Assembly: GCA_903884535.1 (NCBI GenBank)
Contig: CAISEZ010000068.1
Coordinates: 1 to 64,000, forward strand
DNA length: 64,000 nt
Source of the DNA: an uncultured Verrucomicrobia subdivision 3 bacterium
GTDB lineage: Bacteria; Verrucomicrobiota; Verrucomicrobiia; Limisphaerales; UBA11358
Reading direction: 5' to 3'
Positions 14,912-15,003 of the stretch are shown here, one piece after another (position 1 is the first letter of the stretch; the number at the start of each line of letters is the position of its first letter). Under the pieces are notes generated by a model. That model searched no databases, had not been told where the DNA came from, and worked only from the letters and a program-made list of their open reading frames with translations. The translations under genes were made by a program, and so were the position numbers.

Positions 14912-15003
14912 AATGATGAATGATGAATGATGAATGATGAATGAAAAAACGCAGCCACGCCGCACACTGAACGTGATTCTTCATTCTTCATTCTGAATTC
15001 TTC
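14912..15003. repeat. Inverted heptad-repeat pair inside the pdh operon
   Basis: The left arm (14912-14943) has four exact AATGATG units plus a partial one. The right arm (14976-15003) has four units of consensus ATTCTTC, three exact, i.e. GAAGAAT on the other strand. The two arms thus face each other around a 32-base spacer between E1 alpha and E1 beta. Confidence 0.85.

Follow-up and report, generated by a model that had tools for sequence, protein, structure and literature searches.

Phased inverted repeats between the genes of an uncultured verrucomicrobial bacterium as probable gene-less copies of two small mobile-element classes

Phased inverted arms in the window

The DNA analysed here (the window, 64,000 nucleotides) is part of contig C68 of a draft assembly of 3.91 Mb in 165 contigs that is 93.6% complete. 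Between its genes lie short loci in which two arms of phased repeat units are inverted around a loop. These loci, their neighbours and two related features are listed below, with genes called by a simple codon-based caller written for this analysis and with inverted-repeat scores given as IR.

13940-14905, minus strand: transketolase-domain gene, E1-beta-like (PF02779/PF02780)
14912-15003, minus strand: gene-less period-7 element, AATGATG / AATGAAG units (IR 16, periodicity 41)
15015-16040, minus strand: E1 alpha-type dehydrogenase gene (PF00676)
20892-20963, no strand assigned: doubtful period-7 pair, GAAGGATGAA / GAATGATGAA (IR 11, below threshold), in a gap that is convergent by our own gene calls
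20958-21167, minus strand: small gene call
21274-21372, minus strand: gene-less period-9 element, CACGAAATA / CACGAACCA units (IR 25)
21385-21753, minus strand: gene call
21796-22572: panB
22581-22653, minus strand: gene-less period-10/11 CACAGAT element
22645-23661: PfkB-family kinase gene
23664-24446, minus strand: gene call
24505-24559, minus strand: gene-less period-8 element, CRCAAAG units (IR 13)
24564-27230, minus strand: gene call
35126-35536: Nudix gene (Pfam)
35521-35605, minus strand: gene-less period-7 element, ATTTCCA / CAATTTN units (IR 15, periodicity 22)
35608-36897: UDP-glucose dehydrogenase-family gene (Pfam)
44013-44039, plus strand: period-10 single arm, TTCGTGTCCATTCGTGTGAATTCGTGG (tandem repeat call), just upstream of the gene call at 44053
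60027-60413: iron-sulphur assembly (IscA-like) gene (PF01521)
60418-60508, plus strand: gene-less period-7 element, AATTTTA / AGTTTTT units (IR 22, periodicity 37)
60510-61112: DnaJ-domain gene (PF00226), which may be HscB-like

The element at 14912-15003 fills the gap between the E1-alpha and E1-beta-like genes, with 7 and 13 nt between its arms and the gene calls on either side, and the one at 60418-60508 fills the gap between the IscA-like and DnaJ-domain genes at distances of 5 and 1 nt. At 35521-35605 the arms abut or overlap the gene calls on both sides of the gap that the element fills. The CACAGAT element fills the gap between the kinase gene and panB, and the stop codon of the kinase falls within its first repeat unit (cacagaTGA). 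The remaining two elements, at 21274-21372 and 24505-24559, are flanked by the minus-strand gene calls listed beside them.

The initial annotation had named seven loci with a common architecture, one of them a looser case, and had held that the lack of an excess of such arms over shuffled DNA would refute it. A generic inverted-repeat scan was too loose (250 matches against a mean of 192 in shuffles at score 16) and was replaced by a paired-arm scan that required arms at lags of 6-12, an inverted partner within 140 bp and, in the window, an IR score of at least 12. There is a clear excess: the window holds seven paired-arm loci, where 20 dinucleotide-preserving shuffles average 0.6 and never exceed 3, and 459 kb of the home genome (the window plus 20 further stretches amounting to 395 kb, about 12% of the assembly) hold 23 loci at a combined score of at least 30 against a mean of 0.67 (3 shuffles). 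Six of the seven loci originally named pass the IR threshold; the pair at 20892-20963, with a score of 11, does not, and looks like a decayed heptamer pair. The seventh match of the scan in the window, a G+C-rich one at 37378-37500 that was absent from the original list, is probably due to chance. The annotation was also right that architecture and period are shared while unit sequence is not, and that the repeat spacings fall into groups: 11 of the 23 home-genome loci have period 7 and 12 have period 8-11, and the window holds both kinds. It had not noticed the predominance of sites between co-directional genes or the presence of such arms around two specific gene families elsewhere.

The single arm at 44013-44039, for which the paired-arm scan found no partner, may from its sequence be the scar of a period-10 element. 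Two exact heptamer arrays also lack an inverted partner in that scan: GGCAATC (5.6 copies, 55285-55323), which is probably coding sequence as it lies within a long gene call (53899-56796, plus strand), and TTTCCGC (4.4 copies, 27557-27587), a single array in a divergent gap. An Rfam scan of the window at gathering thresholds gave no match.

Genes enclosed by phased arms

In G029, a relative of the same order, we read 20 CACAGAT loci, one of which encloses an open frame that matches GxxExxY (NCBIfam TIGR04256, E 3e-35). This armed frame led to a general test of arms around two gene families, GxxExxY (PF13366) and the 23S rRNA intervening sequence protein, IVP or S23p (PF05635), each of which has matches in 36 of the 40 genomes taken from the genus (the home genome is one of the 40). 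With one listed locus taken per genome, inverted flanks were present at 27 of 30 PF13366 loci and 18 of 29 PF05635 loci, compared with none of 30 at the panB control. The test took 300 nt on each side, with match ends set from tables or from typical length, and required the flanks to beat the best of 20 shuffles by 3 points; loci with fewer than 60 bases of flank were dropped (one PF05635 locus in the genus, two PF13366 loci in the named genomes). The named genomes are 24 genomes mostly of other phyla (one, assigned to Victivallales, possibly belongs to the home genome's own phylum), hand-picked from the list of a CACAGAT scan and every one holding CACAGAT elements. Among the 30 loci listed per family in that set, inverted flanks were found at 22 of 28 for PF13366 and 26 of 30 for PF05635. 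The genes themselves occur in 20 and 17 of these 24 genomes respectively, against 3 and 0 of 14 controls. Inverted flanks were also present at 11 of 12 further GxxExxY loci from relatives and, in the home genome, at all three PF13366 matches and at five of the six PF05635 matches examined (seven were counted).

Where it was measured, a full-length element is about 500 bp long and consists of two inverted arms, each of about three phased units, with one small gene between them. In a copy from NC10 the start codon of the element gene is inside an arm, which reads M-N-T-D. Gene-bearing and gene-less copies can carry the same or similar units. By eye, AGTCCAA, CGCGAAGG and GTTGNAR units are common to both kinds in the home genome; the CACGAAACA units that flank the GxxExxY gene of locus L250 resemble those of the window element at 21274-21372; CACAGAT units flank GxxExxY genes in relatives (L252, L369, L373); and the GxxExxY genes of L244, L257 and L263 have CGCAAAG-type arms comparable with the units at 24505-24559. 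The GxxExxY genes of the home genome have CGCAGAG, CGCCAAG and CGCGAAG arms and none has CACAGAT. No GxxExxY gene with CACAGAT arms turned up anywhere in the assembly (93.6% complete), which therefore lacks the source of the home CACAGAT copies; G007, G001 and G029 do have such genes. The period-7 units of the window have no exact match among the six home IVP copies examined.

The number of loci was compared with gene content in a few genomes. G011, which has neither gene, holds one locus in 266 kb, compared with 42 in 794 kb of G000, G018 and G001, which have both. G048 has one GxxExxY gene and no IVP match, and its five loci in 350 kb comprise two of period 10, which flank that gene, and three weak period-7 hits that lack an IVP counterpart. 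Three genomes (G004, G009, G014) and four of the 24 named genomes have CACAGAT matches but no PF13366 match. We also observed that the sole GxxExxY gene of G048 is flanked by two near-identical complete hairpin elements (L479:17250-17370 and 18095-18200); this hairpin-gene-hairpin arrangement suggests a composite form.

The repeat period follows the protein family. Among 58 GxxExxY loci, pooled from the genus and the named genomes, the arm period is 8 in 19, 9 in 22, 10 in 10 and 11 in one, and six are armless; among 59 IVP loci it is 7 in 38 and 8 in four, with two weak cases and 15 armless. The period is thus 8-11 in 52 of 52 armed GxxExxY copies, none of which has period 7, and 7 in 38 of 44 armed IVP copies (Fisher 4e-22). 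Cutting the arms to 45 nt left this result unchanged save for one GxxExxY locus that turned weak.

Across 70 GxxExxY sequences the G, E, Y, D and E-x-K positions are conserved at 93-100% (D 97%, E 93%, K 99%). A structural model built from three sequences (pLDDT 89.5; the modelled copy has 126 amino acids) matches Cas4 SSO0001 (4ic1; Z 10.1 over 99 residues) and lambda-type exonucleases (LHK-Exo, Foldseek E 3e-4). On the strength of the conserved D and E-x-K, the PF13366 assignment and the predicted fold, GxxExxY is a predicted small PD-(D/E)XK nuclease; one GxxExxY query found no solved structure by sequence. IVP/S23p is a four-helix bundle, and an IVP query matches the solved structures 2gsc and 2rld; we take the family to be related to the Avd proteins of diversity-generating retroelements. 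Arm similarity tracks GxxExxY protein identity (Mantel r 0.41, p 0.0005, n 65), as it should if the arms of an element and its gene move as one unit. Searches of PADLOC and PHROGs with a single protein per family gave no match. Carriage by phages was considered and rejected, since a four-sequence profile confirmed no GxxExxY relative in the viral contigs of IMG/VR and one query found none in a phage collection. Among plasmid records, GxxExxY occurs in eight and IVP in 25. We know of no established function for GxxExxY or S23p/IVP, and to our knowledge neither PF13366 nor PF05635 is a known transposase.

The loci might instead be REP/REPIN elements mobilised by RAYT, a Y1 transposase, given that the logic of short palindromes with a rarer gene-bearing form is similar and that Y1_Tnp matches occur in 37 of the 40 genomes of the genus. 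However, although 26 of 30 Y1_Tnp loci have inverted flanks, these are mostly their own REP-like hairpins, an arrangement already known for REP; phased arms were found at none of the 30 with arms cut to 45 nt (at two with arms uncut), and the home genome has a single Y1_Tnp match. We therefore find this explanation hardly credible. As a separate observation, REP-like hairpins such as AGCCCGCAGTTTCAACTGCGGG flank most of the RAYT (Y1_Tnp) genes of the genus (L482-L511).

Genomic position, RNA folding and turnover at orthologous junctions

The short palindromes are dispersed over many intergenic sites. In the 459 kb of the home genome, co-directional gene calls flank 20 of the 23 loci; of the other three, two lie within gene calls and one at the end of a stretch. 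Of the 20, 12 fill the stop-to-start gap, with both arms overlapping the neighbouring genes or within 20 nt of them. Among home-genome gaps of 40-400 nt, an element is present in 23 of the 122 co-directional ones, whereas all 19 convergent and all 39 divergent ones lack one (Fisher 8e-5). The corresponding counts are 8/35, 3/14 and 1/14 in G018, and 7/41, 0/5 and 0/7 in G001; for convergent gaps alone the three genomes together give no significant difference (p 0.11). CACAGAT loci in the named genomes are co-directional in 44 cases, convergent in nine and divergent in seven, among the 60 of 80 that could be assigned (17 were dropped at contig edges and three inside gene calls; 36 further loci of the scan lie outside this count). 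A strict co-directional rule holds in the home genome but fails in G018 and in the named genomes, and for that reason we claim co-directional placement as a bias and not as a rule. Where an element carries its gene, that gene shares its strand with the genes on either side in 47 of the 50 loci of the genus for which this could be decided (GxxExxY 24/26, IVP 23/24), and more weakly so in the named genomes (GxxExxY 15/25, IVP 17/21). Loci with no usable neighbours were dropped from these counts (4, 6, 5 and 9), and the strands of the element genes agree with the open frames wherever just one strand is open.

Elements of this kind could be intrinsic terminators or attenuators that end transcription units, and a tendency to form RNA hairpins is in keeping with that: 16 element gaps have a median folding z of -3.3 (nine below -3), compared with -0.8 for 40 other co-directional gaps (five below -3). 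Yet the loci sit between likely operon partners, such as the E1-alpha and E1-beta-like genes or the IscA-like and DnaJ-domain genes, many of them abut start codons, and the U-run after the stem is inconsistent in the sequences that we read by eye. The home-genome gap counts, with nothing in convergent or divergent gaps, also argue against it, and the positions in that genome are likely to be intra-operon rather than at the ends of transcription units. Termination is for these reasons a very unlikely role. A hairpin closing the gap from stop to start was considered as a rule and is weak as such, the outermost pair spanning at least 75% of the length in 10 of the 16 gaps with an element and in 16 of the 40 others. 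In a convergent gap of G018 (L084:5636-5757), CGCTAATC-type arms enclose a terminator-like hairpin, GGCCGAGG...CCTCGGCCTTTTTT.

Three junctions were followed across the genus; the panels for hom-thrC and nusB-PHP contain 30 listed loci each, from 38 and 39 genomes with a match, and the gene names hom, thrC and nusB are our own assignments from sequence. At hom-thrC the one gene-bearing copy among the 30 loci is that of the home genome, a GxxExxY gene enclosed by CGCGAAGG arms, and two species carry CGCGAAGG arms at the same place with no gene (89 and 125 nt). Five of the 30 hold remnants of 22-34 nt that resemble part of one arm, 12 have no insert (-4 to 9 nt), another phased element is present in three, and one is ambiguous; six gaps of 552-1289 nt, which probably contain other genes, were left out of the classification. 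At nusB-PHP an IVP gene with heptamer arms is present in four loci and a gene-less heptamer element in one. The other 25 have no insert (-4 to 2 nt), and in 23 of them the two genes overlap by the 4 nt ATGA. Each of the four IVP copies there is bordered at both ends by AT or AAT, perhaps a short target-site duplication; at hom-thrC nothing clear of this sort was seen.

The third junction, kinase-panB, comprises 28 loci with the home genome included: four gene overlaps, three gaps of 26-33 nt and 21 gaps of 54-137 nt. Its filling varies by species between CACAGAT, CGCAGAT, CACGGAT, GTTGAAT-like heptamers and non-phased palindromes, and in at least one locus (L062) the gap has no clear arm pair. 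In some gaps neighbouring this one, the loop of one hairpin encloses a second hairpin. In several species of the genus the upstream stop codon is inside the first unit (cacagaTGA, cacggaTAA), which agrees with the suggestion of the initial annotation that such repeats produce spurious protein ends. One non-phased palindrome, CCCTCTCCCCGCC...GGCGGGGAGAGGG, occurs in the kinase-panB gap (L075, L076) and also upstream of the kinase gene (L066).

In a wider scan, the paired CACAGAT pattern was found in at least 116 stretches, for which the estimated chance expectation is negligible. Their record titles name Cyanobacteria, Chloroflexi, Planctomycetes, Bacteroidetes, spirochaetes, NC10, Nitrospirae, Acidobacteria, several proteobacterial groups and methanogen-related archaea. 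By eye, the arms of these loci are conserved and the loops mostly are not; the loops of 11 home-genome copies look non-homologous, and G029 has many homologous loops. Metagenome bins titled Bordetella parapertussis (L162, L176, L184, L207) carry CACAGAT elements, and that species label looks doubtful.

These data bear on two further explanations. One is a post-transcriptional regulon, in which GxxExxY and IVP proteins would bind intercistronic hairpins and control operons, and their genes would lie beside their own sites by autoregulation. The abutment of arms on start codons is in accord with it, as is the matching by eye of some units between gene-bearing and gene-less loci of one genome, and the TAACTGA heptamers of Beggiatoaceae have been proposed as translational binding sites in the accessible part of PMC4679880. 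But one and the same junction carries unrelated unit families, or none, according to species, so that the sites are not conserved in the way that regulatory sites usually are, and nested insertions and the presence of the element gene at unrelated places also speak against it; we consider such a regulon improbable. The other needs no movement: slippage and hairpin-templated mutation would build the repeats on the spot. In its favour, the tandem period, the variable number of units and the imperfection of the arms can be cited. It is extremely unlikely in the face of the same CACAGAT arms in many phyla and in archaea, similar arms around whole genes, orthologous sites that are both occupied and empty, and a period that depends on the enclosed gene.

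Two proposed element classes and their relation to known systems

We propose that two classes of small mobile element gave rise to the loci of the window, as gene-less, non-autonomous copies; we assign this reading a probability of about 0.8, and movement by the enclosed proteins is inferred. The period would be 8-11 in class 1, which has GxxExxY as the gene inside, and 7 in class 2, which has IVP/S23p. The association of arms with genes, the period rule, the occupied, gene-less, scar and empty states of junctions, the sense orientation and the nuclease motif are established observations, and the proposal is built upon them. Gene-bearing copies would be the source, with a likely order from gene-bearing through gene-less (arm-loop-arm) copies to one-arm scars, and the inverted arms whose origin the initial annotation left unexplained would be the two ends of an element whose gene was lost. 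The GxxExxY and IVP proteins may mobilise or duplicate the element by recognising its phased arms. Most copies would come to lie within operons, where one gene stops and the next starts, and gene-bearing ones would point in the sense direction. Arms at such sites could provide a stop codon and, in one copy or more, also the codon at which the enclosed gene starts. The RNA hairpin may draw the upstream stop and the downstream start nearer to each other and is perhaps cut by RNase III, by analogy with the intervening sequences (IVSs) of 23S rRNA; a hairpin that keeps host operons working in this way would allow insertion to be tolerated there. Sense orientation and transcribed junctions would fit a step that operates at the RNA level or is coupled to transcription; selection against antisense or disruptive copies explains the orientation and the residence at junctions equally well.

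A broader reading, for and against which we judge the odds to be even, is that phased inverted repeats are the hallmark of an unnamed group of mobile elements across bacteria and archaea, in which two unrelated proteins have been built into one architecture and the period (8-11 or 7) tells which of them is the driver. Its members would insert in the sense direction at operon stop/start junctions, possibly through a step at the RNA level or coupled to transcription, and the IVSs of 23S rRNA would be the special case that landed in rRNA. Class 2 extends a known element, the IVS, and class 1 and the period-protein rule appear to be new. The open-access literature (subscription papers being outside the scope of the search) contained no description of the link between arms and genes, five repeat strings and one peptide were printed nowhere in it, and GxxExxY occurs there in two papers, in one of them as an incidental mention. 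Under our proposal the short periodic intergenic repeats seen in many bacterial genomes gain a source, two widespread families, GxxExxY and S23p/IVP, gain a likely biological setting, and the old question of what the 23S rRNA IVSs are receives a possible answer, each being a place where a much larger group has landed. The rule linking period to protein is simple and can be checked in any genome, and operon junctions that are occupied in one species and empty in another make the mechanism testable.

Small bacterial repeats, of which ERIC is an example, share several features with the loci described here. Like MITEs and other small repeats (for example PMC2229807), our elements are intergenic and internally deleted and have terminal inverted repeats, and at hom-thrC gene-bearing and gene-less copies have such terminal repeats in common. 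They differ from MITEs in that no parental transposase was found, the gene inside being PF13366 or PF05635, and in the dissimilar loops of the home-genome copies. REP/REPIN-RAYT systems (PMC2817692, PMC3733652) combine many short non-autonomous palindromes with rarer copies that have a small gene between them; the likeness lies in the short palindromes, the many intergenic copies and the rarer gene-bearing ones. Our elements differ from these systems in having no Y1 transposase, arms that are phased direct repeats, a PD-(D/E)XK nuclease or a four-helix bundle as partner, and a period that depends on that partner. The TAACTGA heptamers of Beggiatoaceae, Cyanobacteria and Bacteroidetes resemble ours in being intergenic heptamers near start codons with a patchy distribution that suggests transfer, but the accessible text of PMC4679880 describes them as direct repeats, with one indirect case among 169 sets, and mentions no linked gene.

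The predicted fold of GxxExxY is like that of the Cas4 and lambda-exonuclease PD-(D/E)XK nucleases, although the protein is smaller (126 amino acids), lies between phased arms and has no CRISPR or phage setting here. Cyanobacterial STRR, which the initial annotation took to be the nearest described class, are tandem direct heptanucleotide repeats without an inverted partner; in contrast, six of the seven loci on its list have inverted partners, and the comparison is weak. The arms of IVP genes at L335, L340, L349 and L351 (cyanobacterial, Chitinophagales, Anaerolineae) include GGGGACA-, AAGGAAG- and CAGTTATC-like heptamers, which resemble the published TAACTGA repeats and STRR. The TAACTGA and STRR repeats may be arms of IVP (period-7) elements.

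The 23S rRNA IVSs are a closer comparison than STRR. In Coxiella, according to the accessible part of PMC4990558, the IVS has an inverted 28-bp stem with GACAGAT heptamers next to the start codon of S23p, the S23p gene lies in the loop, RNase III cuts within the stem, and the function and origin of the IVS are called unclear. The loci described here are likewise short elements in transcribed DNA with stem-forming inverted ends and heptamers, and full-length class 2 copies carry the S23p/IVP gene. IVSs have been described in 23S rRNA genes, whereas the six confirmed loci of the window lie between protein genes; our elements moreover have many unit families, mostly contain no gene (the window copies are gene-less) and have beside them a second class with an unrelated gene and a different period. 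On this reading, the 23S rRNA IVSs would be class 2 elements that have landed in rRNA.
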